Shown: positions 1,236 through 36,700 of the stretch, piece by piece
Numbering within the stretch: the stretch's first letter is position 1
Layout: each line of letters starts with the position of its first letter
DNA from: Hondaea fermentalgiana
Lineage: Eukaryota > Sar > Bigyra > Thraustochytrida > Thraustochytriidae
Length of the DNA: 64,000 bases
NCBI GenBank assembly: GCA_014084085.1
Contig: NPFB01000119.1
Span: forward strand, 115,220-179,219
Direction of reading: 5' to 3'
Notes under the pieces: generated by a model
The model's input: the letters and a program-made list of their open reading frames with translations, nothing else
What the model was told of the DNA's origin: nothing
Databases searched by the model: none
Position numbers and translations under genes: made by a program

Positions 1236-4200
1236 TTAACTTGGCGCAACAGCCGTAGTAACTGAGCCGTTCACAGAGGGAATCGTTTGATTGATCGACT
1301 TGACCGTGGCGACGTTCGACTTGTTGTTCGACTTGCTGTGAAGCGCTGAAGTTCCTGTACCGGAGGAGTCGGGCGGGCCAAACATGGAAAAGTACATTTT
1401 CGGGCCGAAGATAAGCAGTGTCGTTGACAAATCATTCAGAAAAACGGCGATACTGCGAATGAAAATTGAGGTACCCGCATCGTCTGCCGTTAAGATGATG
1501 ACTGGAAGCGCCAGCAACAGAACCTGAAGGTTACCAATCATGGCCAAGCTCAAGTACTTTGTCTCTGCAAAGACGCCGTTCACCTTGCGGCACTGGTAGC
1601 TCAAGTTTGCGCCATAAAAGAGAAGACTGAGATGGTAGGCCGCCAAGAGTCCGACAAAAGTTGACGCCAAAGGGCTCTTACACGAACCATTGAGAGGGTC
1701 CTCGTCAGGTCGCTCAAACTTGAGGGGGTCAATCACAGTCCAAAGCATGAGCAAGAGAACCTCCACCGAAAGGAGGCCGACCAAGAACATCAAGGTCACG
1801 CGGAGCGAGACGCCCTTGACCTTTTTCAGCGATGCCGCGCTCTTGAACACCTTGGCGACTCGGCGAAGCTTTACAATCATACTGCAGTACGTGAGTGCGA
1901 ATCCGAGGCCATAAAACCATGGCTGCGCCATGCAGGCAATGTTTGCCCGTGCGTTGGCCCCGCTGCCGGCAGGGCGACCGACGCTATCATCGATGGTCAT
2001 CATGAAAATTGTGCTCGACGACACCATGGTACCAGCGCCCACAAGGACAAGTAGCATTGGTTGCGAGACTCGAACGATGGTGGTCTTGCGCATGGCGACC
2101 GTCCACGTGATGCAGAGCAAGGCAACGCCGAGGTTGAGCGAGCCGAGGGCCTGGGCAATACTCTTCACGCTAAGGATCGACATTTTCTCCTCATCTTCAA
2201 TGCATGTCATTACGAGGGTGTTGGTGAAAGTGTTCGTGCACGCGCTTTCCTCCGTGCTGTTTTCATACTGCACAGTATAGTAAAAGCCGCACTCGCAGCG
2301 AAGAGGGAGTCCCGTGCCATGATCGACGCAATATGCGTTTTCCGGGCATCCCGCGGAGCATAAGGTCGGGGCTGGTTCGTTAGAGAACATGGTGAGCACG
2401 TAGTACGTCGATTCGGATCCGCTGGCGGTAGGGCGTTTGGCAGCCTGTACAAAGATCACCTTGCTGGTGATTGAGCCATACGCATCGTTCCACGCCACCT
2501 CAAAGGCCTCGCCTCCGACCTCGAAAGCCTTTGCACGAAGTGTCGTCTCGAAGTCGTTGCCGAGCGACGACACGGCTTCATGTTGCTGAACGTAGGTGAC
2601 AAAGGTCTCTCCTTTCACAGCGGTTTCCCAGTCGTCACGCCCTGCTGCGTCTTCGAGCGCAAGAATGGCAAAGTTTTCGTCCAGAACGATGGCATTAAAG
2701 TCTGGACCTACAGCATAGGTCTGGTCGAGAGGACTGTTGATAGCGGTCAAAAGTGTCTCGAGATCCTGGGCAGAAGATGCGAGCTGGATTTCAGAGACGA
2801 GGTGGCCGATGAGAGCCTTTGCATTCACCTCTGAGCACTCGTGCGCGTAGTCCGCTGAGCAGTCTTCAACGATTGGTGCGCGATCCCGTCTGTAGCCGCT
2901 GAGCAAGTAGTATGCGCGTTCGTACTTGTTCACTTTGGTGACATAGCCTGCAAAGTCAGCAGCCATCCCATCACCCGGCAGAGCTATCCAGCCGCCACCT
3001 TGATTGGCGAGTGCCACGAGCGCGGCGTGCGATGTATCTGCGTTCGCGATCTCTCGGGCCGCAAAGGCTGCGGTGACGTCCTCTCCCCACGTTGTGTCGT
3101 CGAGGCTATCTGCCATGACGGTTCGATTTTCCACATCGACGACCAAGACTCCAAAGCCGAGGTCCATGCGATAAGGGTCAGAGGCAAGCTCATCAAAACC
3201 TGTTTCTGTAACGGTGAGCAGCTCGACTTCGGCATGCGCGCTGAGCGATAAGGCGTTTCCAATAGCGCATGGCTCACTGTAGTTTGCGGAACATGTAGCA
3301 CATAGCGCAGATGGTGTTGCTGGGTCCCGGGTATGCATAAATCCAGCGCCAAGATAGTACTGCTGGCCAAAGAGCTCAACACCGACAACAAAGCTCACCT
3401 TGACCTGGGTAGGGACCGACAAAAACCAATCATAACGGGCCCATCCTCCACCTCGTTGAGCAGCGTCGGAAAAGGCAACCTCGAGAATTGTTCCATTAAA
3501 GAAATCATACTCCTCGAAAAGCTCATATGTTGTTAAACCAATCCAATCGGGGTTTGAATGCGCCACGAATATGTTTGTCCCGGATGGACCGCCCATTGAG
3601 CTCGAAAATACGTACCAACTTCCATCTACAAAAGTAGTGTCTTCTGGATAAGTCATCTCGGTCCAAAGAGCACGCAAATCAGCAGGCGTTCTAACTGAGA
3701 GCGCGTGCGAAAGTGCGCTGCCAACAAGGGACCGCACATTAGTAATACTGCAGCGCCGATTGACGTTGACAGGGCAAGCATCGACGTCCATACGCGGCAA
3801 GCTTCTCTGGGCCAAGCTTGCCATCACAACAAATGTCTCGCCAGCATCGTTCGTGGCCTCGCGGACGTACATGAGATGCCGGATGGGATCAGGAAAAACA
3901 TCGTCCTCCGAGACAAAAGTGAACTTGAGCCAACCTGACCCTTGAGAACTCGTCACGGCCTGACGAATCTCGTCGGAAATCTCTTCTTGTTGAACGAGCG
4001 TAGAGGAGGCCATTGCAATCTTATCCAGCGTAAGCCCGTTGAAATTTGTATCTCGGCCGTTTGCGAGGCAGGCCATAGATGTTGCGTTGAAGATATAGGG
4101 AGTAAATCCAAAGTTCACGTTGTGTTCGCCTGCATCTACGTTCGCCAGAATCGACGCTGTGTTGGACGTCACTTCGATCCGCGCGACAAGGCTCTCTACG

Positions 4201-4367
4201 AGACGGTACACGTTGTTGAATGCGCATGGCGTGGCGTAGCTCGCAGAACATGCTGGAAAGATGGGCACGATTTGGTTGTCAAGCAGGTGAATCTCATCTT
4301 GTGCGCTCACGCATGATGCTAGACAGGCTGCAAGTGCCGCCAGCACCAAGGCTGCTCTTTGCGCCAT
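1236..4367 (-). CDS. Tandem Cache-like / EGF-like / class C seven-helix receptor (receptor A)
   Basis: A 1043-residue cell-surface receptor candidate. The ATG at 4365-4367 opens a signal peptide (about residues 1-22, ending near SCVSA). Four repeats follow, each introduced by a short Cys-containing motif (ACSASYATPC near 38, ACPVNVNRRC near 198, CSANYSEPC near 360, CSADYAHEC near 508). They contain sCache_2-type signatures such as DGSWYVF and GGGWARYDW. An EGF-like module lies near 668-700 (CSAGCPENAYC, CECGFYY). Seven hydrophobic helices span about 734-990 and carry class C/GABA-B-type marks: VSQPMLLVLVG, ACMAQPWFYGLGFALTY, KLRRVAKVF, WTVIDPL and FAETKYLSLA. The cytoplasmic tail is short and Ser/Asn-rich. 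Cache domains sense small ligands in other proteins; ligand and G protein here are unknown. Its closest relative in the window is receptor B at 33735-36977, on the other strand. Family assignment is by motif reading, so the 7TM call is firmer than the Cache call. Confidence 0.85.
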   Translation of the reverse strand: MAQRAALVLAALAACLASCVSAQDEIHLLDNQIVPIFPACSASYATPCAFNNVYRLVESLVARIEVTSNTASILANVDAGEHNVNFGFTPYIFNATSMACLANGRDTNFNGLTLDKIAMASSTLVQQEEISDEIRQAVTSSQGSGWLKFTFVSEDDVFPDPIRHLMYVREATNDAGETFVVMASLAQRSLPRMDVDACPVNVNRRCSITNVRSLVGSALSHALSVRTPADLRALWTEMTYPEDTTFVDGSWYVFSSSMGGPSGTNIFVAHSNPDWIGLTTYELFEEYDFFNGTILEVAFSDAAQRGGGWARYDWFLSVPTQVKVSFVVGVELFGQQYYLGAGFMHTRDPATPSALCATCSANYSEPCAIGNALSLSAHAEVELLTVTETGFDELASDPYRMDLGFGVLVVDVENRTVMADSLDDTTWGEDVTAAFAAREIANADTSHAALVALANQGGGWIALPGDGMAADFAGYVTKVNKYERAYYLLSGYRRDRAPIVEDCSADYAHECSEVNAKALIGHLVSEIQLASSAQDLETLLTAINSPLDQTYAVGPDFNAIVLDENFAILALEDAAGRDDWETAVKGETFVTYVQQHEAVSSLGNDFETTLRAKAFEVGGEAFEVAWNDAYGSITSKVIFVQAAKRPTASGSESTYYVLTMFSNEPAPTLCSAGCPENAYCVDHGTGLPLRCECGFYYTVQYENSTEESACTNTFTNTLVMTCIEDEEKMSILSVKSIAQALGSLNLGVALLCITWTVAMRKTTIVRVSQPMLLVLVGAGTMVSSSTIFMMTIDDSVGRPAGSGANARANIACMAQPWFYGLGFALTYCSMIVKLRRVAKVFKSAASLKKVKGVSLRVTLMFLVGLLSVEVLLLMLWTVIDPLKFERPDEDPLNGSCKSPLASTFVGLLAAYHLSLLFYGANLSYQCRKVNGVFAETKYLSLAMIGNLQVLLLALPVIILTADDAGTSIFIRSIAVFLNDLSTTLLIFGPKMYFSMFGPPDSSGTGTSALHSKSNNKSNVATVKSINQTIPSVNGSVTTAVAPS

Positions 4368-5667: not shown

Positions 5668-8600
5668 GCGCTCGCGGCCAGGGCGGGCAGGCTCGGCGAG
5701 GCGAGCGGCGACGCTGGACTCGAGAAGGAAACCCGCGCCGCGGTCGAAAGCCTGGGGAAACTGGTCCGGCGCAAGGGCGAGCGGGCGTGCAGGAAGCAAA
5801 TCGTCGAGGTCCTCGCGGCCGTCGCAGAGGCCGTTCGCGTGAACGATGCATGCGTGCCCGTCGCGCTGGACCTTGTCACGGGCGAGGAGCTTGGCCACGT
5901 TGATGTGCTAGCCGCAGCAGAGAACGCGCAGGATCGAATTGCGGTGTGCAGGGCTTGCGAACTCCTCTTTACGAGTGCCGCAGGCGCCGCTTTCGTGGCG
6001 TCGCGATCTTGGGAACCGCTCTACGCCCTTGTGCTCGACCAGAACGATCTCGTGCGCGCCCACGCATCCAGGGCCGTGCGCGAGCTTCTCGGTCTTCCTC
6101 TTGGCGCGCATGGAGCAAAATTGCAAAAAGCGACCACCGCTGCGCGCGATGCCGCCGCGCTCGCGCCTCCTCCTGTCCGCATTCAACGCGACCTTGAACA
6201 CCTCCTGCTCCAATATCAAGAGCAACAAACAAGCGAGGTCGACGCAAACGTCGCAATGAATGTCTCGAACGAGACTCCTGGCAACAACAGCATTTCTGAG
6301 GCGATCGAGCGCCACTGGGCCAAGGATGGCTCGGCAAGGGCCGTGCGTTCTGCCACCACAGAGAGCAATCTCCGTGCGGCCATGGTTGCACTCCGCAACG
6401 GAGCCCCTGTTCTTCTTGAGGGACGAAGCGGTGCAGGAAAATCACTCCTCGTGCAAGAACTTGCGCGCATGCATGGCAAGGAATCTACCTTGGTGGAATT
6501 ACAACTTGACGACCAAATGGACAGTAAGACGCTCCTTGGCACCTATGTTTGCACTGACGTGCCTGGAGAGTTCCGCTGGCAGCCCGGTGCGCTGACCCAG
6601 GCCGTCCTTAATGGCTGCTGGGTTTTCATCGAAGATATTGACCGTGCGCCCTTTGAAGTCTTAGCGGCCCTTATTCCTCTGTTTGAGTCGCGCCAGCTGC
6701 TTCTTCCCAACCGGGACCAAGTCATTGCAGCAGGCCCGGGATTCCAGCTTTTGGCCACGAGGCGATCGGCTGTTCGGGGCCCGCCACTTCTTGAGCGATT
6801 GTGGACCTCGGTCCACGTCCGTCCGCTGCCACCCAAGGAGCTCCTCGCTGTTGCGAAGGAGCTCTATGCGGACTTGAGTCCATCATTACTCGCCCTGATT
6901 CTCCGCACTTTTCAGTGTATTGTTCAAGACGTTGGATCGGGAAAGCTCCGCGATGGCAAAGTCGACTCCTCTTCCAAAATTGGTAAAGAGGAATCTGAAA
7001 ACAAGATGGAAATCGAAACGCCAGAGGATGAAGGCGACCAGGACGAGATTTTGCCTCTTCCTGTGGACCCTAAACGTGTCATTCCTGGTCGCACTATGTC
7101 AGAGCGCGACCTTTTCAAGTGGCTTCGACGCATTGGGGCACTCGTGAAACTTCATGCACGCGAACGCGCATCAAAGAGCGGCGGGGGTATCTTTCTCACC
7201 GAGCAGGAGCGCGAAGACCTTCTTGTAGAGGCAATGGACTGCTTTGTTGCAGCCATGCCGAGCGTCGAGTCCCGCATTTCCATGGCTCAGTGGCTGGCCG
7301 CAATCTGGCACCTTCCCAAAGAACGTATTCTTCACCGTATTCGATCTTACAAGCCAGAGGTCGTACCTCGGGGGCGATCAGACCCTTCTCTGCGTGTTGG
7401 ACGCGCACGACTGCTCATGTCCGCGCGGGAAGATGCCCAACGCCCCGGCCGCGTTGCTGCTACTGGCGTAAGCATGCGCCTTCTCGAGCAAATCGCTTGT
7501 AGCGTTCAAATGAACGAACCCGTTTTGCTTGTTGGCGAGACAGGTGCAGGGAAAACGTCCATGGTTCAGCATTTGGCGCGCCTGCTCGGCAAGAAGCTCG
7601 TTGTGCAGAACATGCATGTGCAAAGCGACACAACTGAGCTCCTTGGTGGCTTCAAGCCTGTACAATTGCGGCACGTTGCCATGCCTCTTTACGCGCGCTT
7701 CACGCAGCTCTTTTGCGAAACCTTTGCCGAGAGCGCCAATCAGCGATTCCTGCAAGCTGTCGAAGACGCTGTTGCCAAGTCGAACTGGAAAAAGTTGGGC
7801 AAGGCCTGCGTCGCGGCATGCAAGATGGCCGATGCCAAGTGGACCAAGCAGCGCAAAGCCTTGGAGGCAGACGAAGAGGCACCGCGGAAACGCCGTCGTC
7901 GCGGTCGTAGCAATGAGGGTGGCAACGAAGCCGATGACGCAGAGGCAAGCGGCGACGATCTTGAGATGGATGCTCGCGAGCTCGCTGAACGCGAGGCAAT
8001 CTGGGAGGACTTTCGTGCCGAAGTATATCGCTTTGAGCGACAGCGTAAACGTGTTGAAAACAGCTTCGCCTTCTCTTTTGAGGAAGGCGCACTTGTCAAG
8101 GCCATTAGGGCCGGAGATTGGGTACTCCTCGATGAGATAAACCTCGCAAGCGGCGAGACGCTCGAGCGTTTGAGTGCCCTACTCGATGACGAAGACGGCA
8201 CGCTGTCCCTCACGGAAAGAGGCGATCTGGAGCGCGTGGAGCGCCATCCAGACTTTCGCATCTTTGCAGCAATGAATCCAGCCACCGACGTGGGCAAGCG
8301 TGACCTTCCACCGGCGTTGCGGAGCCGCTTTACCGAGCTTTTCGTCGACGAGGTCGAAGATGCCGCCGATCTTCAGCTCGTAGTCGGGCTCTATTTGGAC
8401 GACATTCCCAATCCGCCCGTGCATGAAATCGTCGACCTTTACCTCACGGCGCGCAAGCGTGCAAACGAGCAAACCTTGCTGGATGGTGCCAATCAGCCGC
8501 CAAGGTACAGTCTGCGGACCTTGTGCCGCGCCCTGCTCACGACGAGAGTTCTTCTCACCAAAGGCTTTGGCCTTGCACGTGCGCTATACGAGAGCTTCGT

Positions 8601-11600
8601 CATGACCTTTGCGACTCTTCTCAACGAGAAGTCGCTCAAAGCCATGTCCAAACTGCTGAAAAAGACCTTCGTTGCTGATGTTAGTGTCAAGGCCTTGGAG
8701 AGCGCCCCTCGTTGTCCAGGAACCAAGAGCACGCGCAACAACTACATTCTCTGCGACAAGTTCTGGCTTCTCAAGGGCCCGCGCTTGACCCGTCCAGCCG
8801 CAGACGCAATGCCCGAGTCCAGCCCAGCGGCAGAAGCCCTTAAGCTTGAGGCAGCGGCCGAGGACCGGGCGGCTGCGAGCCTTATTTCCTCCTTTGTGGA
8901 GACACCCCTTGTCTTGCGTAATATTCAGGCGCTTGCGCGAGCGATCGCAGCGCAAAAGTATCCCGTGTTGCTCCAAGGACCCACAAGTAGCGGCAAAACC
9001 ACCATGGTGTCGTACCTAGCAGCGAAGGCAGGCTACAAGTGTGTTCGTATTAATAATCACGAACATACCGACCTGCAGGAGTACATGGGTTCCTACGTGA
9101 GCGACGAGAGGGGTAACCTCGTCTTCCGCGAGGGTGCCCTGGTGGAAGCCGTGCGGAATGGCTATTGGATTGTGCTCGACGAGCTGAACCTTGCGCCTTC
9201 CGAAGTCCTCGAGGCTCTGAACCGTCTTCTGGACGACAACCGCGAGGTTTTTATTCCAGAAACCCAAGAAGTCGTCAAGCCGCATCCGAACTTTATGCTT
9301 TTCGCGACGCAGAACCCGCCGGGTCTCTACGGCGGCCGCAAGATGCTTTCGCGCGCGTTTAGGAACCGGTTTCTCGAGCTGCATGTTGGCGAGATCCCGA
9401 CAAAGGAGCTGGAGACGATCCTGAACAAGCGCTGCGCGCTCGCGCCGACATTTTGCAAAGTCTTGGTCAATGTGATGACGGACTTGCAAATGCACCGTCA
9501 ACAGAGTAAACTTTTTGCTGGCAAGGAAGGCTTCATTACCCCGCGCGACCTTTTGCGGTGGGCTAATCGGAATCCCACGACTTACGAGGAACTTGCCGTA
9601 GAGGGTTTTCGTCTTCTCGGTGACCGTGTCCGGTCAGATGCTGACAAGAGAATTGTGCAGGACGTGATTGAAAAGCGCTGCAAGACACAACTCACGGATG
9701 CCCTCTTGTACCCTGCTGGGGAAGGCACAGCATTTGCAGGTTGTTCCGGAGAACGCGCACAGGCCGAGGGCGTGAGCAAGGTTGTCCCAACGCGCGCCAT
9801 GCGGCGAACGTACGCCCTTGTGCGACGCTGCCTCGAGGTGAAGGAGCCCGCTCTTCTCATTGGCGAAACGGGATGCGGCAAAACCACCGTGTGCCAGATG
9901 CTTGCCATCGAGGCGGATCTGGCTCTGCAAATTCTCAATTGTCACCAAAACACCGACACGGCTGATATTCTCGGTAGTCTGCGGCCGATGCGCAACAAGA
10001 ACCAGCTTCAAACGCGTGCATGGGAGCTCGCATCAGCACATGGCTGGGATCGCGACTCTTGCGCGAGCCTTGATGAGCTCGAGTCTCGCGCGACGTCTCG
10101 GGTGAACTCTTTGGCAGATGCATCCGAGGACTCCCGGGCTTCTCTTCAAGAGATCATTTCACTCGTGCGGCGCTACAGAGCCCTCTTTGAATGGCAGGAC
10201 GGTCCATTGATTGACTCCATGCGAAAGGGCGACATGTTCTTGCTCGACGAACTTTCGCTGGCCGAGGATGCCGTGCTCGAGCGACTCAATAGTGTTCTCG
10301 AGCCTTCCCGCACGCTCTTTCTTGCTGAACGGGGCGGCGATCAAGTAGAGGAGATCGTCGCACACGATACCTTTCGCATTTTGGCCACAATGAACCCGGG
10401 TGGTGATTACGGCAAGCGCGAACTTTCACCCGCGCTTCGGAATCGCTTCACAGAAATTTGGATCCCACCCGTGCACGACGAGGCCGACCTTGTTCTCATT
10501 TTGCAGCGGCATTTGAACGCAGTTGCAGCGTCGGCGGGGATGAAGGATGCAGAGGCCCGCTCTGCTCTCGCGCAGGCCCTCGCTACTTTCTACACGTGGT
10601 TTAATGGGCCCGCACAGAATGACCACGCGCTCATTCAGCTCACCCTTCGTGATCTCATTTCCTGGGCCGCTTTTATGGTGCACGTCACGCAAACTGCAAA
10701 CATTGAGCCATGGACGGCGTTCCTTCATGGCGCAGGCCTCGTCCTCCTCGATGGTCTTGGTCTGGGCTCGGGCGTTTCCGAGGAAAGCTGCCGTAGCCTT
10801 CGTGCAAAGTCATGCGCGTTTCTCCTTGAACTAGTGCCTCTGGACACCCAGGTTGCGGTGCGCGAGAAGGGTGATCTCTTGCTTCGAAGCTTTTTCGTGG
10901 AGAATACCCGTGACGCTCCCATGATGCGCAAATTGGGCCCTTCTGGGGACATGAGCGTTAGTGTCGTTGTGTCCGACGAAGCCATCGTGCACATGAGTAC
11001 CGAGGAAGATTTGGACTCGCGTTTTGGTTTGCATCCCTTTTACATCTCGCGTGGCCCTGTGGGTGACACTCTGTCTGGCCCCGACGGCGTAGGGTACGCC
11101 CTTGACGCGCCGACGACCTCGGAAAACCTTGCACGAGTTCTTCGCGCCATGCAGCTGGAGCGCCCCATCCTATTGGAGGGTAGCCCTGGCGTTGGTAAGA
11201 CCAGTCTCATTGACTCTCTTGCGAAACGATCGGGTCATCGCCTCGTACGCATCAATCTTTCGGAGCAGACAGATTTTGCTGATCTAATTGGGTCTGATAT
11301 TCCCGCTGCGGCCAACTCGACCGAGGAAGGTGCTGTCGCGGACAAGGTCTCCTCGGGAGCGAAATTTACCTGGAGTGACGGCGTTTTCCTCGCTGCTCTC
11401 AAGGCAGGAGACTGGGTCCTGCTCGATGAATTGAATCTGGCATCCCAGTCGGTGCTCGAAGGCCTCAACGCATGTCTCGATCATCGAGGCACTGTGTACG
11501 TGCCAGAGCTGAACCAGTCTTTTCACTGCCCGCCATCCTTTCGGGTGTTCGCGGCACAGAACCCGGTGCAGCAAGGCGGCGGAAGAAAGGGTTTGCCCAA

Positions 11601-14600
11601 GAGTTTTCTGAATCGATTCACCAAGGTCTTTGTGCAGCAGCTCACCGACGAGGATTACGGATTCATTGTGTCCAAAATGTACCCAGAGATGGATCGTGCG
11701 CTTGCGGACCGCCTCATTGCCTTCAATAGCTCCATTGTCCATGACACAATCAAGACGATGAAGTATGCGCGCGCAGGTGCACCGTGGGAGTTTAATCTTC
11801 GTGACATTTTTCGCTTGTGCGAACTGTGCGCCGGCGCAGTCGACATGGAGGCAGCGATTGTACGTCACGCTGGCCTCGTTTACTTTGATCGCCTCCGCAC
11901 TGAGGAGGATCGCGAAAAGATGCGCGCGGCATTTGCAGAACATTTTGGCGCTGCATGGTCTCAGCGCCGTATCGAGCTGCGGACGTCACGAACAAGTCTT
12001 TCTGTAGGCGCCGCGAGTGTAGCGCGATCTCCGTACACGAGCAACCAGCGCACCGCTTGCGACGAGGCAGAGCTGCCGACAGGGTTCATCCCTCGCAGCG
12101 CGCTGCCCACGGTCGAACATATTGCGCATTGCGTTGACAAACAGTGGCCTGTGCTCTTGCTCGGAGCAAGCGGGACCGGCAAGACCTCAATCCTTCGTGC
12201 CTTCGCCCAACTTTGCGGACGTCGATTGCACGAGTTTGCCGTGACGAGCTCCACCGACTCTACAGAACTCTTGGGGTGCTTTGAGCAGGTCGATCTCGAC
12301 CGAAAGGTCCGCGAACTTCGCACTGGGTTGACGGCAGTGTGCTGCAACACTCTTCGCCACCTCGTGGTCCTCGGGGACGAAAGCATGAATGCAGATGCGT
12401 TGCAGCGCGCAGAGACACTTGAGGCCCATCGCCATTTGCTCGTTCATGGCCCCGAGCTTCTCCCTCGCGCAGAGCTTGACGCTATGTTTGCGGACCTTGG
12501 CGAAGTTGTAGACGAGTCCAATCCGTATGGTCTGGAACCTCTTCACCTGGAGGTCTACCGCTCGGATCTTTCCCGCTTGAAAACGGAATGGGAGGCCGAG
12601 CTGGCGGCTTCCAAATCAGGTTCATTGTTAGGAGCCTTTGAATGGGTTGATGGTACCTTGGTCCGCGCAATGGAGCGAGGTGACTGGGTGGTTCTGAACA
12701 ACGCAAACTTGTGCAATCCCACAGTGTTAGACCGCCTCAATCCGGTGCTGGAGATGGGTGGCGAGCTCATGATCAACGAGTGCGGTATGGTGAACGGCAA
12801 GCCGCGTATCATTCGTCCTCACAAGGATTTTCGGATCTTTCTTGTAGCTGACCCGGCCTTTGGCGAGGTGTCGCGTGCCATGCGAAATCGCTGTGTAGAA
12901 ATTGCGCTCCTATCACCTTCGTGGGGGGCCACGCTCGCGTCTGGAGATGCCGAGCGCGCACTGGCGCATCTCGGAATTTCTTCGCAGGCGGCCATGTGCA
13001 TGCTAGGTGCCTTTTCGGTCCTTGCAGAAAGCTCTGAACGTGCATGCACTGAAGTGGCGACGCCGAGTTCGCTCGTACGTTGGGCCAAGATGTACCGTAC
13101 CTTTGACAGTTTCTCGGTCTGCGGATCGCGACCTGACGAGGCACTCCGACTTAGCTTCGAGGCATGCTTCGATGTAACAATGCCCTGGGACGCAACAGTT
13201 GCGCGAGCCGCCGGTAACATTCCGGACTCTACACTTGCACTCAATACAAGTCGCTTTCCGTGGGCGTGCGCTCCCATTCTGGGCGATGGCGACGCTCGTC
13301 TCCTCGGGGTACTCCAGTCCGGCGCCGCGCTTGCGCAAACGTTACAATATGCGACGCTTGCGTCGGAAACTCGGACTGTGGAGTCAAACGATGATAAGAG
13401 TAAGGCGAGCGCGGCGCGTGCTGCAATTGCGCACTTTATTCACGCGGCTTCGTCTTCGGACTGGAGTCTCCGCACAGCTTTTGCGCAAGCCACGAGTCAA
13501 GAGGCAAGCGATTTGGTCGTGGCGGTGCAAGAAAGGTACAACAACCTCGTTGCATCCATGGAAAAGGATACTTCGATCCCCTCCGTTCTTGAACCTCAGA
13601 CGTTTGATGCCTGCCTCGTCGATGAGCCGGCTGTGGCGCAAGGACACATTGTTCGTTTACTTGTCTCCTTGTGGATTCGTTCTCACATTGCGGAAGCAAA
13701 ATTGCCAAAGCTCGGCTCTGGAGATGGGGCCGGAAGTGCAATCATGGAAAATGTCCAGTCTTTGCTTGACGCTGTGGAGCTCTGCGATCGCGGGAAGCTG
13801 TCTAAGGCGGACTTGCGCGTCCCCGGCGCGGCCGTTCTTCCTGTTCTTTTGCGCTCACTCGAGAAATTCGTGCAAGCGGCTTCCACGTCGTTGCTTGGCC
13901 AGTGTGATCGTGTCGATGCCGACGTACGCGATGCGCTTTTGATGCAACTTCGTGATGTTGTGGAAATTCATGCTAATATGGTGCGGATTCTCTGTCAAGT
14001 CCATGTCGAGTGGACCTCAAAGGACGCATCGCCGCTTCAACACGCTGTGGGTAAAGTTTCCTTGGAGGCTCGTGCTGCAGCGAAAGCAAGCAAGCTTGTG
14101 CGCGAAGGACTGGAGGAAGATGAGATGGTCCGCCGGGCCGCACAGGACTTGGAACATGCTTTCAAACGAACGGATCGGGCTCTTGGTGTGCGCAGCAGCA
14201 ATTGCTTCGTGGCCTTTTGCGGCACGACAACGAACGGGAGGGGTCAAAATGGTGCTCAGGATGAGTTGCGCTTGGCCCGGGATCTCTGGAGACAGTGTGG
14301 TCAGCCACGACCCATGAGGTCAGCGGACCTCTTTGAGTCTCTTGTCAAGGTTGTGGATCTCTCGAGGCGCAGTTGGCTGCAGGACGCGGCAACTTCGTTC
14401 CGGGATGCGCTCGAGTCTGGCCACCTGGCACTGCTCATGACTGCGGCCCAGCGGCATACGCTCGTAGATGCGGCGTGTGCGATTCGCTGGGCAAACGCAC
14501 AACGAGCTTCCAGTTCGGATGCGCTCGAGGAGAGTGCCGCAGCTGTTGATGGCATTGTGCAGCGCATCTCTCGCACGCTCGAGGGCAAGCAGACCTTGGT

Positions 14601-17600
14601 GCAACGGGCGAACACAGAGTATAAGATGCTGGGCGCAGTGGACACTTGGTCATTGATGTCCGCAGAGGACATGAGTCAGCTCGCCGATCCTGAGCTGAGC
14701 AAGTCGCTCCATGGACAAGCTCCAGAAGCCAGTCGGGGTTGGGGGTTTGTTCAGCTCCAACCTTTGATGGACGCCTGGGCGTGCCGTGCGCTGCTCCATT
14801 TGTGTGCAGAAGCCTTTTCTCGCAACGAGGATGGCACGCCGGGCGCGTTTGACGTGCAATCCGCGGAGGACACCCTCGGATACGCCCTCGAGGCTTCGTC
14901 GCTCCCACCGCATTTGATTGTGCCTTTCAAGGAGCTTGCCCTGCGTCGTGACGCGGGGGCTCCGTGCGAAAACCTCGAGCTTGACCTCCTGCATGGTCTG
15001 TACGAGGCCATTTCCGGAGCCACCTTCAATTCGAGAGAGAGCATCGATGCAGACGCCAGTGCACACATTCGCGAGGACCTTGCGAAGTTCATGTTCAAGA
15101 GAAAGGCGTGGACCCCCTTTGTGGAGATCGACGTCTTTGCCGACACTCTCAGCGCGGGTATGCCCCGTCTGGTCCAGGATGTGGCAAGTCTCGTCATCTT
15201 TCGCGTCGTGCGCGGAAGCGGTGTCGGTATGGACAGAAATCAGCCTCGAGACCGGTCGACGACGCCATTTGGGGAAACCGTCTCCATCCGCGATCGTGCG
15301 ATGCGCTTGGGACAGCTTCAGATTCTATTTGCACATCTCCTCAGCGAGACGACTTTCGCAGAGAAGTCTGATGGTAAAGCTGCCGCTCGCCAGTCCAAGG
15401 TGGCAGAGGTTCTCGGCGATGAACGGCGCCTCTTCGCGCGGGAGCTCCTCTCGACGCTGCGCGTTATTTGCTCCTTCTCGGCATCGCTTGACTTGCTAGA
15501 GTCGCGAATTCTCGGCAAAAGCTTTGCAGACGATGGCGAGGCCGTTTTTGGCGCTCTGCTTGATGTCTTGGACGAGAAGCTTGGGGCTCTTGGGTCTCAT
15601 CTCGTGGACTGCACGCTTCGATCGGCGCTCTCAACGCTTCGCTCGGGCGTTGCGCGACAAGACATTGCGCTTGCCTCGACGATGCTAGCTCTTTTCCGAC
15701 TTCACGTTCTCTCGCCGAACTCTGCTGTCGATCCATGCCTCAAGCCGCAAGTACGTCTTCTTCGTGCTGAAGGCGCGCGCCGGGAGATCGTGCGCGAGCT
15801 CGAAGTCCGTCGCGAAAATGACTGCGTCACAGGCCGTGCCTTTGGACCTCTGGCGCACGCGCATGAAGGCCTGTTGGCTCGCGATGGGGCCTTGCAAGAA
15901 GAGATTGTTCAGCTCCATGAGCAAGTTGTCCATCGGCCGTCGAGCGGTGAGGCAGGCTTCCCAGCTTTGCATGCGGCAGTCTTTGAGTTCAACACCTCAA
16001 TTGGCGCGGTTGACCGTGTTCTCGGTATTGTCCGCGCGGTGCAAATGCGTGCTCAGGATGCCGATATGCAGGAAGATATGTTGTTGGAAGCGTGTCGTCA
16101 GCTCTGCGCGAGCCTGGATCGCGATTTCCAGGGCTACGAAGATGTCGTCAGGCCCGTGCAGGTCTCGCTTCGTCGTCTGCAGCACGGCTTGCGAGTTCTT
16201 GGTGTCGAGGCTCGACGTGGCTCCGAAGCCGCGCGTCGCGCAGAAAAGCTCAGCGAAGTTCGTCGTGTGCTTGGCGCTTTCCCATCGACAGCGGTTGGAA
16301 TCGCAGACACTCGTTTTGGGAACCCTCTCGATGCACTTCAGTCCACACTTGTGGAGACGCGCGACATGGTCAGCAAACGCACGTGGACCCGCATGTTGGA
16401 AGCAGTCTTTGCGCGCGCCTCAGCGCTGCTGCAAGCGCGTCAGTCGCAGAACCGCAAGAATCGCGGCGGGGAGAATGAGCCAAAACTCGGCGCATCCGAC
16501 GCATGGAGCACGCTCTCTAATATTCTTGCAGCCTTTACTGAAGAGTTCCTCACGGAAAAGCGCGAACGCAAAGTGCGCGAGGAGGAGGCAAACCAAACTT
16601 TCAAGTACAAGACTCGCGAGCATCTTGCTGCTGGTACGCCAGAAGCAATCAAGGCGCAGGAAGAGGCCTCCTTTCGCGAGATGTTTCCCGACTTTCATGA
16701 GGAGTTTGATCGGGTAGCCAAAAAGGTCTTGGAGGACCTCGATGAATTGGCCGTCGGAGATGACCAGGACATGGGCAATGACGGAAACGGGAGTGACGAG
16801 GAGGGCGAGAATGCGGACGGTGATGACGAAAATAGTGCGGCAAGGCTCGAAGGCTTGGACCACAAGTCGTATGTGGCCATCGTCGATCGCGTGGTATCTC
16901 TACTCTTGATGGGTTCGTCGATGCGTAATCGCGGTACGACTGCGCCTCAGCCTCTGTTTCGCGTCGCAGAGGCTTATCTTGGTGTTGGCTACCATGCTGC
17001 CGGTATCTTTGCGGATCCTCTGGAACTTGGCGTCGATGAAAATCGTGGAGGAATCCTTGGTGCCCATGTGCTGGCTCTGGCACTCGGCGCCCAGGACTGC
17101 CAGCGTCGCGTAAAACTCGCGCCATTGGCAGATGAGCCTCAGGATGTTACGGTCGATCTCGGCGAGGTGGTACCGGTCAAGAAGAACCTGAACCAAGACA
17201 GTTTTGTGGAGGAGGTCGCGTTGTTGGAGGTACCGCTCATTCAACTTTCTGCAAAGCTGGACGAGCTCCTTGCCAGCTGGCCGGATAATGCGCCCCTGCT
17301 GCAGCTTGCCAAGTTGACGATGCGGCTCCGCGAACTGCCGCTGACGTGCCCGCTAATGCGCGCACTGGTAGGTATTGAAACCCTTTTGCGCATTGCCAAC
17401 GACTGGGAGATGGTCGCGCACAAGGACGTGAGCATTCGTGGCTTCACGGCACCTTTTGTACGACTTGTGGTTCGTTGGCGCAAGCTCGAGCTCCGCTCTT
17501 GGCCCTATCTGCTGGAACAACGCGCGCGTGCGTCTCAGGACGAGGCCAAGCTGTGGTTCTACGAGACGTACTCACTCGTCACTGGCGAGCTAGAAAGCGC

Positions 17601-20600
17601 CGAAGTTGCGGATGTGTTGTTCTCGACGATGGACCAGTTCGCTCGCACTGCCACGCTTGGTTGCTTTGAAACGCGGCTTCGCATGCTTGGGGCATTGGGC
17701 GAGCTTTTGCGTTGCAAACGCGAAGCACGCGAAGCTGACGGAGATGCTGGTTCTGCGGACGAGTCGTTGACGGTCATGGAGCACCAGTTTTGGCATCTGG
17801 AGCGATACTATGCGCAGTGGATTGCCGACATTCGCGCCACGGCAGATCGCCAGCGCGTGCCGATCAAGCAGAAGCTCAAAGATCAAGTCAAGCTGGCCAA
17901 GTGGGATGACCGCAACTACTATGCGCTCAAGGTCAGCGCAGAGAAGACGCATCGTCTTTTGCACAAGCTCTCTGGTGACGTCGACGAGATTCTCGCGCAA
18001 CCTTCTTACCAAACGATTGAGCACGTGCTTGACAGTCGCGTCGGTAAGCGAACGGAACCCCGTTCAGGTGAAGGCGAGGCAATCCTCGTCGAGATGGACG
18101 ACATTGATACGGCCCGCCTTCCTGCGGTCGGCAAGCTGTCTCTTGCAAGCGTGAAGGCAAGTCCCTCTGAGGCTCGTGGCGAGAACGTGTCGGGCTCATT
18201 TATGGACACGCCGGGTGGCTATGGGCTGCGCTTGCCCAAGCTGGCCACTAAAACGGAGATGATCGCGCGCAAGGTTGTGGCGCGTGCGCTTTCAAGCGAG
18301 GCTTGGCGTCAGGATCTAACGCGCGCAGCCGCTATGAATGAGGCCGTCATTGATCGCATCAAGAGCCTACGAACCGGCAAGGCCCCCCAAAGTGCCAAGC
18401 AGCGTGCGGTGGTCGACTTCTTTCGCGCGCTCCGTGAGGAAGGTCTCTCACAGGCACGCGCTGACAATGCCATGCTGTTTGCCGCTATCGGCGAGGAGGA
18501 GCAAAAGAACAGTGGCACCTCTCTGAAGCTCTTTTCGATGCGCCCCATCGTGGTGCAGGATTTGGAGAAGATTGGCATGCCGTCGTCCGCCACGGCGCTC
18601 TTTGCTCGATCAGACCGTGACTTTTACAAGGACCTCGCGCAGCTCCAGCGTCTCCGTGTTAACATTGTCTCGGGCGCGCTTTCGGCAGATCTTCCGCGTA
18701 TGCAAATGCAACGTGGTCTTCGCTTTTGTGAGCATGCCATGGAAATCATGGTTGACCAGCGTGAGGCGCTGGCTTTGCACGTGGACGGGCGACTGGCGTT
18801 GCGGCAAGCTGCTGCTGATCTCGCGCGTGTTGCGCAGAGCAGCGCTAGGCTCGACGAAGCAGGTGTCGAGTTCCATGTGCGGCTTGTGGAAATGCTGCAG
18901 GCTTTGCAAGGCAACGCAGAAGAACTGGCGGACTTCCTCCGGGTCTTGGCGGCGCAACCAGGTGCAGACGAAGTGAGTGCATATCTTCGCGCACGAGGCG
19001 CCTCCTCGATGCTTGGCAAGCTATCCACACTGAGCGACCTCCGCAGTCATGCCGAGGGCGATGGTGCCGTGGCTGTCCGTACACTTGCGGACCGCGTGGC
19101 ACGGGCACTGGCACTCGTGAGCCCCGGTCTCGGCCATTTGTGCCTCACGCACGATGAGACCAAGCATTTGGAAGAGCTGCCAGAGGTTCTGCGGGATGTG
19201 CAAAGCGCCATTTCGGATCTTTCTGTTGGTCTTGAGCACGTCGGGCTTCCATCCCAGGTCCTTCGCGAGGTTGTTGCTCACGTTCGCGAACTCGTGGCGA
19301 CGGGCGACGACTTTGGCGCAAGTCTCTTGTCTGCCTCGTCGCTGGCGTCAACACACGAGCAAGGCCAAGCGCAACGAGCGGCCAAGTCACAGGAAGACGA
19401 CAAGGAAAAGGCCTCGCGGCAGTCCCCGCAGTCTCAGCAGACCGCGCCAGCATCCGTTGACGAGGTTGTCGAGTTGGCTCTCGTGATCATGCAGGATGTG
19501 CGGTCGGAGCTGCTTCCGTTCACAGAAACGTCGGGTGAATTGCAAGCCTCCGGAATTGTGGCACAGCACCAGCGGCAGCTGGCTTTGCTCAAGAGCACAA
19601 GAGTCACGCAGCTGGCAACAAGGGTTGGCGCAGCGTCTCGCGACTGCTTGACTGCCCTCTGCGACGGTGGGCTCGACGAGCACTCGTCACGTGGACTTCG
19701 CGCGCTCGTGGAGCTTGCATCGAACTTTGTGGGCCAAGTGGAAGCCACGGTGCGAGCTCTGGAAGTGCAGAGCGTGGAGTTTCTTGCACACTTGGGGCGC
19801 TTCGAGTTTCTCATGCTTCGCGTATTCCGAAGTCTTGCAAGCAATGGGTTTTGCAAGCCGCCTGACGAGGAGGAAGAGGGTGAAGGTGAAGACGCTGAAG
19901 CCTTTGGTGAAGGAGAGGGCACCGGCATGGGCGAAGGCAAGGGCCGTGAAGACGTCACCGACGAAATCGAGGACGAAGAGCAGCTTTTGGGCCAAAAGAA
20001 GGAGCAAGAGGACGGCGACCAGGACAAAAAGGAGGAAGAAAAGCCCGACGAGCGCAAGGGCGACGATGGCATGGAGATGGAGAACGAATTTGAAGGCGAT
20101 ATCTTTGATGTGGAAGATCCTGAGCAAAAAGAGGATCAAGAAGAGAACAACGAGGATGACGAAGAAGAGCTCGACCGAGAAATGGGCGATCTCGACCGCG
20201 AGGACGAGCATGTCGTCGACGAAAAGCTGTGGAACGAGGACGACGAAGACAGCGAGGACGAAGGCAAGGACGATGAGCCGGAAAGCTTCGAGAAGGACGC
20301 TCCCATGCAAGGCGACGATGGCAATGACGAGCTTCGCGCGAAAGAAGAAGATGAAGAGGATGATAAGGATAAGCAAGAGCCAAAGGAAAAGCCCGACGAT
20401 GCGCAGGATCGTAACAAGCAGGATCCCAAGGGCGACAAGGACGAGGACGAGGCCGAGGGTCCTGATCGTGTCGACGAAGCCGACAATGTCGAGGAACGCA
20501 ACATGGATGTCGCGCAGGACGAAGATGAAGACGTTACTGGCGAAGATGCAGAGGAGCAAGTCTTGCCGGACGATCGCAACGATGAGGTCGAAGATCTTCC

Positions 20601-27063: not shown

Positions 27064-30000
27064 TCACTTATGACCCCAATCCAGGTCCTCCTCAATCTCG
27101 TCGTCAATCTCGTCGCCCGAGTCAACACCGAGACCTGCACTACCCTTGCCAACGCGCGGTCCATCGTCGTCAATGAGGGAGTCAACGCCAACAGCTCGAG
27201 CAATCTGCTCCAGAAGAGGCGCCTCAATGTACGGCGCCACCGCAATGTTACGTGCCTTCATGTTCTCGATGAGGCGATGCGCGTCGTCAAAGTCGCGGTT
27301 CCCAACATGGAACTCGACGAGCAGCGCGAAAATGTCTCCCGCGCGCACAGCTGTGTTGACCTCTGGATGAGCCAAGAGCGCGTTGCAAATGCGATCAGCC
27401 TCATCAGGGTCGCTCACAACGAGCGTACGCGCGTGTACAAAACGCTCCACAAGGGAAACACGTTGCTGCAGAGAGGCAAGCATTTCCTCTTTCAACTCGC
27501 CATCCCTCTCCTTGCCGAGGGCTTTGACAGCCTCCTTGAGTGCGCCAAGAGACTTGTCGTAGTCACGGTACTCGTCAACCTCCATTTGAGCGCAAGCTTC
27601 GTAGAATCCGGCGAGCTGCTGGTATGCTTTGGCCTTGGAGTAATAGCTGATGATTGCCTTCATGATCTCCGCATCATTGCGCCAGTCGAGATTCTGCAGA
27701 TAGTTGGCGGCGAGAATGTAAATCTCGCGGTTGCGGGACACACTTGCATACAGAATGATCTTCTCCGTATTACCGGAACGTAGCAGGCACTTCATCGCAC
27801 GGAGACGATCTCCAGCCTGCGTGTACTTTTTCGTGGCAAGATGATACGAGCCTTGCTTCTTGCAGCACTTGGCAATGCTCTCAAGAAGTCGCTGACGGCG
27901 CTCGTTTTGCTCCTTGATCCGGGCCAGCTCGCGCGGCGTCTGCTTCTTGTTACCTGACTTTGGAGCAACCGACAGCTTATCCAGCGTCATGGACTCGGCC
28001 ATGTCTTCGGAAATGTGCACCTTTTGGTGAAAACAAAGTTCAATCGCCGTCTCAAAGTCGCCAGCAGTGATGTAAAGATGCACGGCCTTGTCAAACTTGC
28101 GATGTTCAATGAAAAACTCGGCGCAGCGCGTGAGGATCTCCGGCGACGACTCCGTGGTGTCCTGCTCATACTCTTCGCGGCTTTGACTTGTGGCGCTCTC
28201 GGGCCGCTCGCGATGCAGGCCTTGGCCCCCGTCGATGCTTTGGCTTCGCATTGCGGACCCAGGGCGCGATCGCGAACCCGAGTCCGGGCGCGCTGAAGGC
28301 TTGCGCAGCGTCAGGCTGTCTGCAATAGACGTGAGTTGATCAAAGAGCTGCGAGCGAAAACAGAGATCGAGCGCACGAGGCACGTTGCCGCCCTTTTGGT
28401 AGAGAACCACAGCATCTTCGTTGAAACCCTTGGCCTCAAGGTATCGCGCGGCCTCCACCATTGTGGTCTTCGAGGCGCGCAAGGCCAAGTTAACAATGTC
28501 CGCATTGAGTCCGCGCTCCTTGGCGAGGCGCACAGCATGGTTGTAACGCCCCGCGCGAGAGTAAAACTGAATTGCCTCATTGATCTCCCCGCGCTGCTCG
28601 CATTGGCGCGCGAGGTGGTACGAGGCCGCAAGATTGGTGCTGTTGAGCGCGATTTCAGCGGCAGCCTTGAAATTCTCCATGACGCAGTGCACTCGTACAA
28701 GGGAGAGGTCGTCGGATGCACGCTGGTAGACACGGATCGAGCGGTCGTACTCGCCAAGGCTCTCGCAGTAGTGGCCCCACCATTTTGTAAGCTCTTCGTC
28801 GCACTGCGTTTGGATATAAGATTCGAGCTCATCAAGACGCTCCGCTTCAAAGAGCATGCGTGGAACCTGTTTGCGGTGCGTTCCCGAAGCCTCGTAGTTG
28901 GCAATAGCAGCCTTAAAGTCGCCCATGCTTTCGAGATGACGACCATACTCAAAGTGGGACTCGCGGAGATGAATGCGATCAAAGCTGTTGGCGACTTCGA
29001 GCGATTTAGTCCACTGGCCGCTGTGCCGAAGCATCTTATTGAGAAGATCATACCGCCCGCACTCAATGTAGAGCCTTTCAGCGTCCTCGAGAAGACCGAG
29101 CTGAATTGCGACTGTGGCAATGCGCGCCTCGACCTCAGGCTCACGCTTGCTCTCACGCAGTGCTTGCGCACCTCGCACGTGACCCATGTTGCCCATGCAC
29201 ATTTCAGCAACGTCGAGACGCCGCGTCTTAACGCACATGTGCGCCATGTTCTCCCACACCGAAACGTTATCAATGAGCTTGACGGCGCGGTAGGCCTCGT
29301 CCATGTTGCCAATGGTGAGATAGTAGCTAAAGTCGATGAGAGCGCGCTTCGTCTCATCGTCCACACGCTGGTCGAGACCGACAAAGTCGCGCATCGTGCG
29401 ACCCTTGAGGCGTGGAACGCCACCGTTCTCGCTCGGCTTGCTGATAAAGAAGAGCCGAGGAACGCGCATGCCGAGGAGCGCCTCGAGATTGCCTTCGAGT
29501 GGGAAGGCGTCCTGCATCATGACACCGACACGTTCCTCTGTTGCGAAAAGGGTGACCACCTCGACCTCGGCAATTTCAGCGCTGCCATTGCGAGCCCGAA
29601 GCGCGGTTCTCATCTTTTGCAGCCGATTCTTTTCTTCGTCCGCTGCCGCCGCCGCCGCCACGTCATCCACACCTGCATTGCCACCAGCACCACCGGGTGC
29701 ATTGCTGCTCCGGCTAGTGCTACTATTCCCGCGACGCAAGTCACCCAAATCCTCGTCCTCGTCTCCGACAATGCGTAGACGGCTGCCTTTGAGCTCCTTT
29801 GAGGACTTGACCTTGGCATCCGATGCCTCCTCAAAAGAGTTGACGCTCTTGCGCAGACGCTTGGCCTCGCAGGCGAGAAGCTTGGGCTCTTGGCCGTCCC
29901 AAAAATGCGACACAGGGTACCTTGTGGGGCCAAACTCGTACGCCTGAAACTCGTCCCTGTTCAGGTTCCACACGTGGATGCGCGTGTCGGGCTCGCGGAG

Positions 30001-33734: not shown

Positions 33735-36700
33735 ATGACGAAGTTTCGAAGCTGTGCGCTTCAGCTTGCATGCGCACTTTTGCTCTTGCAATGTATAACG
33801 CCAGCCTTGGGGAGACGACCGCCGCGTTTCCACGATCGATTTCTGACTTCGGAGGACGAGATTTCGAACACGACGGTGACTGCTTTTCCTGCCTGCTCCG
33901 CTGACTATGCGGCTCCTTGTTCCTTCAACAATGTGCTTCGTCTTGTTCTGACCACGTCGAAGCTCCTATCCGCGCAAGCGAACGAAGAACAGCTACAAGC
34001 CATATTGGACCAGGTCAACGCTCAAGAGTTTAACATCAAGGACGCCTACGGTTTTGTTCCGTACATTTTCGACGCAGATTCCATGCGCTGCATCGCCAAT
34101 GGTCGCAATGCCGTGGGATTTAGCAACCTGACGCTCGAGGAAATGGCCCTGTCTCTCGGTGTGACCACCACTCAAGATGGTCTCTCTGAAGAAGTTCTTC
34201 TTGCGTCTGCAGAAGACAGCGATGGATGGTTCAAGTTCAACTTTGTGTCCGAAGACTTTGACGGCGAACCTGTCTCCTTTCTTGGGTACGCCAATCGCAT
34301 CGATGTGATCGGGCACTCATACGTCATCGTTGCGGGTTTCGCGCATCGTTATTTGCCTCGTCCACCCGTTGAGACTTGCCCGACCACAGTCAACAGGCTC
34401 TGTAACATCGTGACTGCTCAGTCTCTCGTTGGCGCGGCGCTATATAGCGCAATGACAGCCGATACACCTGCCGAGCTGCGCGAGACCTGGAATGACATCA
34501 CCTTCTCGACAGACACGACCTATCAGGAGGGAGGCTGGTATGTCTTTGCGTATGGGTTTGGCGAGAACTTCACGAGTGGGGCTTTTGCTCACAAGCGTAG
34601 CGATTGGATTGAGAAAACACTATTTGACATCTCTCTGTCAATTGTTCCGGATGTCAGCAAACAGAACGGCACAAGGCTGCACGAGCACTTTGTTGCCGAG
34701 GCTCTGTCAGGTGGTGGATGGGCCAGCTATGACTGGGCCGTTTCGTCCACAGCGACAGCACAAGAGAAAGTTAGCTACGTCGCAGGTCTCCGGCGCTTTG
34801 GAAACGATTACTATGTTGGCGCAGGTTTCAACCATATTCGTGACCCAGCCGCGGAGAGCGCATTGTGCGGCACATGCTCGGTCGAGTACAGCGAACCATG
34901 CGCCATGAGCAATGTTCTCACACTCGCGGCTCATGCTCAAGTCGACATTCTCACTCGCAGTGAGGAGGATGGTCTCTTTGTCGGAATCAACAATGTCAAC
35001 TCCGAGGAGTACATCATGCCTGGCGGATTTGGCGTCCTCATCGTTGACTATGCTACCAGAACTGTCATGGCAGACACAGTCGACGCCAGTCTTGTTGGTG
35101 CAGACGCGGCAGCGGCCTTCGCCGTACGTCACATTGGGGAAGTATCAACCGCGGACGCCAAGCTAAAGGATTTGGCCGACTTGGGCGGCGGTTGGCTCGA
35201 GCTGGCTGGAGAAGACAACGTTAGTTCTTTTGCGGCATTCGTCCAGAAGCTCGTCACAGATGATAATGAATACTACCTGATTCTCGGCTATCGACGAGAG
35301 CGCGCACCAGTGACAGAGGCTTGCTCCTCGATGTACTCGGCGCCATGCTCCGAAATCAGCAGTCAGGCGTTGATTGGTGAGATCGTCACAGATATTCAAC
35401 TCGCGAGTTCGGATGCCGAGGTGAGTGCTATTCTTGTGGAAATCAATGCTGGCAACGTGACAGTTGGGCCAGACTTTTATCCGATAATCCTCGATGAGAA
35501 TCTCAATATTGTAGCGCACGGAGACGTCACAGCGCATCAAGGGTGGAATATGTCGGACCCTCAGCCGTACGTTGACTTTTTGCAGCAAACTGAGTCCGTC
35601 ACTTCGCTCGGTGACAGCTTTGAAGCAAATGTTGTTTACAATGCCTTCAAGCTCGGTGGCGGCACCTTCAGTGTCTCGTGGAACGATGCGTTCGGCTCAA
35701 GTGTGGACAAAATTGTGTCCGTTCAGGCTGCAAGGCAGGTCTCCGCCGCGGACGGCGGCGTGACGTGGTATTATGTCATGACAATGTACATTGACGCCCC
35801 GGCGCCTACACTGTGCAGTGATGGATGTCCAGCAAACGGGTACTGTACGGAGGAAGACAGCAGCGATGGGCTTCCTGCGCGTTGCGAATGCGGGTTTTAC
35901 TACACGGCCGTGTACGCAGATGCGTCCAACGAGACGTGCGCATCGACGTTGACGCGAAATCTAACAATGACGTGCGAGGTGGACGAAGACAAGGCAGGAG
36001 TAAGCAGCATCAAACTGATTGCCCGGGTTCTTGGAGGCATGAACAGCGCGTTTGCCTTGGGCTGTATTGTCTGGACAATCGCAATGCGCAACAATGCAAT
36101 CGTGAGAGCTTCACAGCCTGTGCTGCTCATCCTAGTGGGATTCGGTACGATGACGTCCTCCATGACCAACTTTGTCATGGCTGTAGACGACAGTGTCGGT
36201 CCTGCCGCAGGCGAAGGAAAGAATGATCTTGCCAATTGGGCTTGCATGGCTCAACCTTGGTTCTATGGCATTGGCTTTGCAATTACATTTTCGACAATGA
36301 TTGTCAAGCTCCGACGCGTGGTCAAAGTCTTTCGCAGCGCAGCAAGGATGAAGAAAGCGCGGGGGGTCTCGCTGAAAACTGCGGTGCAAGTGCTTATTTT
36401 CCTGGTGGCTATCGAGGCGATCGGGCTCTTGGCCTGGACGCTCACGGACCCGCTCCAATTTGTCCGTCCTTCTGATGATCCACTTAACGGTGCCTGCGAA
36501 AGTCCTCACTCTAGCATATTTGTTTGGTTTATGGCAGCATACCACTTGGGTCTACTCATGTACGGAGCGGTTCTGAGCTACCAATGTCGCAAGGTGAATG
36601 GAGTGTTTGCAGAGGCAAAGTATTTGAGCTTGGCCATGGTGAGTAACCTTCAGATCTTGGTCCTCGCCTTGCCTGTCATCAAGCTGACTGCGAACGATGA

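Follow-up and report, generated by a model that had tools for sequence, protein, structure and literature searches.

A class C receptor of Hondaea fermentalgiana with four tandem Cache-type units and a predicted carboxylate pocket in the second

Among class C G protein-coupled receptors (GPCRs), GPR158 and GPR179 carry one Cache domain and an EGF-like domain on their seven-transmembrane (7TM) domain and have no Venus flytrap (PMC12716839). The Cache domain of mGlyR is described as binding glycine or taurine, with signaling through an RGS complex (PMC12834959). The earliest precedent that we found is the stramenopile protein TP_7830 of Thalassiosira pseudonana, reported in 2012 as a Cache_1 domain on a glutamate-family receptor (PMC3251606, where the diatom is filed under Alveolata). 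Cav alpha2delta, an extracellular protein of eukaryotes, is described as having four Cache domains, which are intertwined with a VWA domain (PMC10761187), and a 2018 report lists three GPCR domains as enriched in thraustochytrids (PMC6050695). We analyzed a window of 64,000 nucleotides from the thraustochytrid Hondaea fermentalgiana, which is part of a contig of 179,219 bases (C23), and describe a gene on its minus strand that encodes a class C receptor with four tandem Cache-type units. Two InterPro entries of the thraustochytrid enrichment list are presumably family 3 and GABA-B.

An initial annotation made from the sequence alone had placed the gene at 1236..4367, and these coordinates were borne out by one open frame on the minus strand (Table 1). 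The signal peptide proposed there corresponds to an N-terminal hydrophobic stretch (residues 5–23), and its class C assignment agrees with a PF00003 (7tm_3) match to residues 742–990 (E 3.6e-34, 119 bits against a cut-off of 33.5) and with the GABA-B-type marks it had quoted (WTVIDPL, KLRRV, FAETKY), all of which were found. A Pfam search of the receptor at E<=10 gave neither an ANF_receptor nor a Peripla_BP match, the families expected of a Venus flytrap. Each of the four units opens with a C-x7-C motif (Cys 40/48, 198/206, 359/367 and 503/511), a spacing that is kept in every unit of all 13 array-bearing proteins, namely ten receptors and three PARP-type proteins introduced below. The annotation had described this motif as ACSxxYxxPC at all four units; the C-x7-C start holds for each of them, and unit 2 (CPVNVNRRC) is not of that type. 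Between unit 4 and the first membrane helix lie seven Cys, five of them invariant and two present in nine of the ten receptors. EGF pairing includes a 1–3 disulfide, and since P0002 is devoid of exactly the first and third Cys of the module, this joint loss fits paired Cys. No EGF family matched above the Pfam cut-off in the receptor or the relatives scanned, and the annotated EGF-like module ahead of the membrane is borne out as a Cys pattern. With high confidence in fold and architecture, we describe the protein as a class C 7TM receptor in which a tandem of four sCache_2-type units, followed by a Cys module, occupies the place of the Venus flytrap of related receptors; the Cache fold is shown for units 1 and 2, and units 3 and 4 are assigned to it by inference.

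The receptor belongs to a family of ten proteins of one layout, which comprises the window receptor, two paralogues on the same contig, P0004, P0002, P0006 and P0008–P0011. One paralogue lies in the window (Table 1) and the other immediately left of it (C23:111988-115071, minus strand; 55% identical over near-full length), a kinship that speaks against a chance resemblance. The Hondaea fermentalgiana database proteins P0005 and P0003 match these two paralogues (window 33735-36977, plus strand, and C23:111988-115071, minus strand, respectively). Both database models have a different or cut N-terminus, and both genomic frames are longer and have hydrophobic starts. P0004 stems from another Hondaea contig (177,783 bases) and had no identical match in the genome searched. 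Neighboring copies may be common, as P0002 and P0008, and likewise P0009 and P0010, report equally long contigs. P0002, P0006 and P0008–P0011 probably come from thraustochytrid sources. The three protein searches each scored only the 8000 candidates with most shared words, so that relatives elsewhere may be missed. Six-frame genome searches with the sCache_2 and dCache_2 families gave no match at E<=0.001, no relative was found in viral contigs with the queries A3 and A11 or in phages with P0014, and prokaryote genomes searched with A11 yielded one Cache-like bacterial piece. A wrongly joined or decaying gene would explain why relatives carry the database names of flytrap receptors and why the two database gene models differ at the N-terminus from the open genomic frame. 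Against this stand the 1043-codon open frame and the recurrence of this architecture in all ten receptors, six of them from further sources, and we regard such an artefact as ruled out by this shared layout in conserved relatives, its probability being negligible.

The window receptor alone gave no Pfam Cache match even at E 10, and its unit 2 as a separate piece had no match either; hence, the Cache assignment rests on relatives, profiles and a structure model. Unit 2 of P0002, P0005 and P0008 passes the Pfam cut-off (PF17200 or PF08269), and when unit 2 was searched as separate pieces at E<=1, dCache_2 was matched in six of the ten receptors (best 1.9e-5) and sCache_2 in five (best 8.3e-5). 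Unit 4 pieces match sCache_2 in four of ten receptors and unit 3 pieces a Cache family in none. Receptor-only profiles of the individual units gave no significant Cache match against the PDB, and their lists resemble chance matches. Another profile, A10, was hand-chosen and combines the unit 2 pieces of five of the ten receptors with units 1–3 of the three PARP-type proteins, whose unit 4 did not enter it. Alignment of units 3 and 4 to other units with hhalign gave values of 92.1–97.5. The structure model of the ectodomain (residues 25–735) shows Cache-like units, as the annotation had expected, and its comparison with the PDB identifies the fold of solved Cache and sCache_2 sensors in units 1 and 2. 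For units 3 and 4 the model is mostly confident with a similar order of elements; most PDB matches span model residues 21–323, and six of the 50 rows of the match list reach well past residue 323. Taken with the relatives and profiles, the model backs the annotated sCache_2 type, and the three signatures quoted for it (DGSWYVF, GGGWARYDW, QYYLGAGFMH) were found, all within unit 2. The bacterial sCache_2 sensors (4K08 Adeh_3718; 2QHK/4EXO; PscD 5G4Y/5G4Z) share fold, profile match and the pocket residues of unit 2 with the receptor, but are single domains on methyl-accepting chemotaxis proteins.

The same C-x7-C array of four units, with best matches running roughly unit to unit, occurs in the PARP-type proteins P0007 (1244 aa), P0014 (1150 aa) and P0013 (874 aa, ending early), which in place of the 7TM domain possess one membrane helix (judged by eye in P0013 and P0014) and, in P0007 and P0014, cytoplasmic WWE and PARP domains. 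For one of these tandem-Cache proteins the label names a Tiarina transcriptome, in which other species may be present. The PARP-type proteins served as reference for the ligand pocket. In PscD the carboxylate is described as held by Tyr90, His103, Tyr143 and Lys156, with the ligand sandwiched by Trp92 and Trp145 (PMC5062169), and a lactate sensor is described with Leu at the place of the His, where a Leu to His exchange permits pyruvate binding (PMC12415202). We aligned all 52 units and counted the canonical set Y, W/F, H, Y/F, W/F, K. The Tyr–His (13) and Trp–Lys (11) spacings of the PARP-type reference unit equal those of PscD. In unit 2 the set reads Y F H Y W K in seven of the ten receptors. 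The window receptor is among them (residues in Table 1), and its spacings are 18 and 9 against 13 and 11 in PscD, with small length changes thus lying in between. The exceptions are P0006, with Phe in place of Trp, and P0010 and P0011, in which the set is absent. Units 1 and 3 show the full set in none of the ten receptors. Unit 4 has the Trp in all ten, the Tyr in eight and the His in three, and in the window receptor it keeps Trp and Lys. All three PARP-type proteins keep every residue of the set in each of units 1–3, and none does so in unit 4.

Identity between receptors and PARP-type proteins is similarly uneven. For unit 2 it amounts to 150/180 at the pocket versus 1025/4542 elsewhere; at the pocket of the other units it is 6/180 (unit 1), 0/153 (unit 3) and 42/180 (unit 4), with a background of 23–25%. 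When six PARP-invariant columns of unit 2 were drawn at random, 14 of 20,000 draws attained the observed value, and 7 of 20,000 did so with only columns of Y, F, W, H or K admitted, figures that serve as a guide and not as true probabilities because the sequences are related. Where a second alignment method covered the pocket places of units 1 and 3, it agreed with the first on the losses. From these residues we consider it fairly likely that the ligand binds in unit 2, and about an even call that the ligand is a C2/C3 carboxylate. Both CACHD1 and Cav alpha2delta are among the structural matches of the receptor model, and a Cache array that is mainly structural or protein-binding, as in those proteins, would make the receptor a sensor of a partner protein or of matrix. 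Cav alpha2delta shares four Cache domains in one protein, yet it is intertwined with VWA, is no 7TM receptor and has no C-x7-C-led array, and the persistence of the complete six-residue pocket in unit 2 of seven receptors and of distant PARP-type proteins makes this explanation quite improbable.

The initial annotation had suggested that the receptor could integrate several small ligands, amino acids for example. This finds no support, since the canonical pocket is confined to unit 2 and is of the carboxylate type; the count over the 52 units rules out that all four units act as independent amino-acid sensors by way of the known pocket. A broader version, in which each Cache unit binds another small molecule, the 7TM domain reads the sum, and units 1, 3 and 4 have been remodelled, deserves separate consideration. 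These units are conserved as strongly as unit 2, the altered places are themselves conserved (at the His place Asn in nine of ten receptors in unit 1 and Asp in all ten in unit 3, and the Trp of unit 4 in all ten), and three units of the PARP-type relatives keep a pocket. Conversely, the canonical residues of units 1 and 3 (3% and 0%) lie below background identity (23–24%), which indicates that these two units have lost the known binding mode, and the second alignment places a gap in unit 3 at the Tyr/Trp place where the first has Leu. We therefore judge such an integrator to be rather unlikely. A related proposal, which we hold to be distinctly unlikely, is that the entire four-sensor array was transferred in one piece between two kinds of output protein, a GPCR and a membrane WWE-PARP, and that the receptor units then diverged, so that one receptor reads several chemicals simultaneously; unit 2 would be the carboxylate eye, the remodelled pockets would differ in specificity, and the invariant Asp at the His place of unit 3 would hint at a cationic ligand.

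Our best explanation, which we put at somewhat better than even, is a short-carboxylate receptor with unit 2 as the predicted sensor. Unit 2 would bind a C2/C3 carboxylate such as acetate, propionate, glycolate or pyruvate, and the His at the selectivity place would favor pyruvate over lactate. Units 1, 3 and 4 may serve mostly as scaffold, dimer contact or lever. Binding in unit 2 would be relayed via units 3 and 4 and then via the disulfide-rich module until it reaches the 7TM domain, which would switch a heterotrimeric G protein. Eleven G-alpha loci score above cut-off in the Hondaea genome (one with an in-frame TGA), hence partner machinery for the 7TM domain exists, and G protein coupling is likely from the receptor family. 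A plausible use would be the sensing of nutrients or decay products by a saprotrophic, zoospore-forming protist. Swimming zoospores are described for thraustochytrids (PMC12221091), in a paper that also cites a study of their chemotaxis. The window also encodes an IFT140-like protein (27064-31917, minus strand), consistent with a flagellated stage.

We compared the 7TM domain to other class C receptors to place the family. C812, C896, F987, P989, K990 and Y992 are invariant in all ten receptors and correspond to the Cys pair between TM3 and extracellular loop 2 and to the F-x-P-K-x-Y of TM7, which we take to be class C marks. The best solved 7TM relatives are GABA-B1 and GABA-B2, with which the W-x-x-x-DPL and D/E-x-K-Y marks align; their ectodomain is a Venus flytrap, of which the present receptor has none. 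The family 7TM profile scores 77.8 bits with GABA-B2, 67.0 with GABA-B1, 42.9 with mGlu7, 26.4 with GPR158 and 18.8 with GPR179. GABA-B2 was likewise the top match of the two other Hondaea class C receptors tested, so that this preference marks a broad group. The Hondaea genome contains 24 7tm_3 loci, three of which are the four-Cache family. Among 20 of the 21 others (L043 was omitted), an ANF_receptor domain lies above cut-off near the 7TM domain in five, Peripla_BP_6 in one and Phosphonate-bd in one (L042 on contig C224, 93 bits, before 7tm_3), and none has a Cache domain at E<=0.01 in the region scanned, which for most loci was cut about 500 residues ahead of the 7TM domain. At L023, L026, L029 and L032 these roughly 500 residues have no Pfam match at E<=0.01. 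Evidently, the ectodomains of this receptor class have been swapped often.

In an unrooted maximum-likelihood tree of 30 7TM sequences, which includes 18 of the 21 other Hondaea loci (L039, L043 and L044 were omitted as partial), one branch separates the ten Cache receptors from all other sequences (100/99), and another does so for these ten plus the Venus-flytrap receptor P0012 (99/98). Both branches stay when six long or odd rows are removed (99/97 each), and Hondaea flytrap receptors adjoin this group with moderate support (88/82, 87/82). Because the family pairs with a flytrap receptor in this tree, the Cache array probably replaced a flytrap, with P0012 as the inferred sister. The 7TM phylogeny foreseen by the annotation thus placed the family with P0012, with GABA-B2 as the only animal sequence and GPR158 absent. 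These data also bear on whether the receptor belongs to the GPR158/179 (mGlyR) group, or is its protist ancestor, and detects glycine or amino acids with its Cache part and EGF-like stalk. The order of parts is alike (Cache, EGF-like module, class C 7TM; PMC12716839), and the flytrap is absent from both. The profile scores, on which we reject membership, favor GABA-B2, the family pairs with a flytrap receptor, the pocket is of the sCache_2 carboxylate type, and four homologous units, one with that pocket, stand in place of a single Cache. Coupling to the RGS7-Gbeta5 complex is a further trait of the GPR158/179 group; the tail of the window receptor has 48 residues and contains no known domain. 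Such membership is very improbable, a direct bearing of the gene on the origin of GPR158/179 is not supported, and the likeness looks convergent, with Cache gained independently.

Table 1. Features of the receptor gene and its paralogue in the window
Feature	Position	Strand	Remarks
Four-Cache class C receptor gene, entire	1236..4367	-	single ATG-to-stop frame without interruption, 1043 aa
Signal peptide, residues ~1-22	4302..4367	-	hydrophobic stretch 5-23; cleavage site judged by eye
Cache unit 1, residues 38-195	3783..4256	-	canonical pocket lost
Cache unit 2, residues 196-355	3303..3782	-	carboxylate pocket set complete: Y252 F254 H270 Y312 W314 K323
Unit 2, span of six pocket codons (first to last)	3399..3614	-	
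Cache unit 3, residues 356-501	2865..3302	-	pocket replaced; model: helix/strand order similar
Cache unit 4, residues 502-668	2364..2864	-	pocket partial; model: helix/strand order similar
EGF-like Cys module, residues 670-722, seven Cys	2202..2360	-	Cys pattern
Class C seven-helix domain, residues 740-995	1383..2150	-	
Short cytoplasmic tail, residues 996-1043 (48 residues)	1239..1382	-	without known domain
Paralogue, same architecture, 1080 aa	33735..36977	+	51% identical over near-full length

Two further genes of the window were inspected by eye. A single frame of 5556 codons (6256-22926, plus strand), in which AAA-like ATPase motifs recur and one part is acidic, appears midasin-like, and a protein of 999 aa (52901-55900, minus strand) appears to be a channel of multiple helices whose outer loop is large and has no Pfam match at 1e-5.

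Literature searches on the architecture found no four-Cache receptor, most subscription papers being outside their coverage. TP_7830, compared by description only, shares a Cache on a glutamate-family 7TM domain in a stramenopile and has one Cache_1 versus four sCache_2-type units here. With GPR158/179 and this one diatom receptor as precedents, the four-Cache receptor varies a design already described. Class C receptors with Cache and EGF-like parts thus occur outside animals too, apparently through replacement of the flytrap, and the carboxylate pocket of bacterial chemoreceptors provides a testable guess at the ligand of an orphan protist receptor. An extracellular sensor wired to ADP-ribosylation, as the tandem-Cache WWE-PARP proteins suggest, would be unusual. 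One sensor array is common to a GPCR and a membrane PARP, and since the pocket is kept in one receptor unit and erased in others, the family offers a natural experiment in the loss or change of function among repeated sensors.
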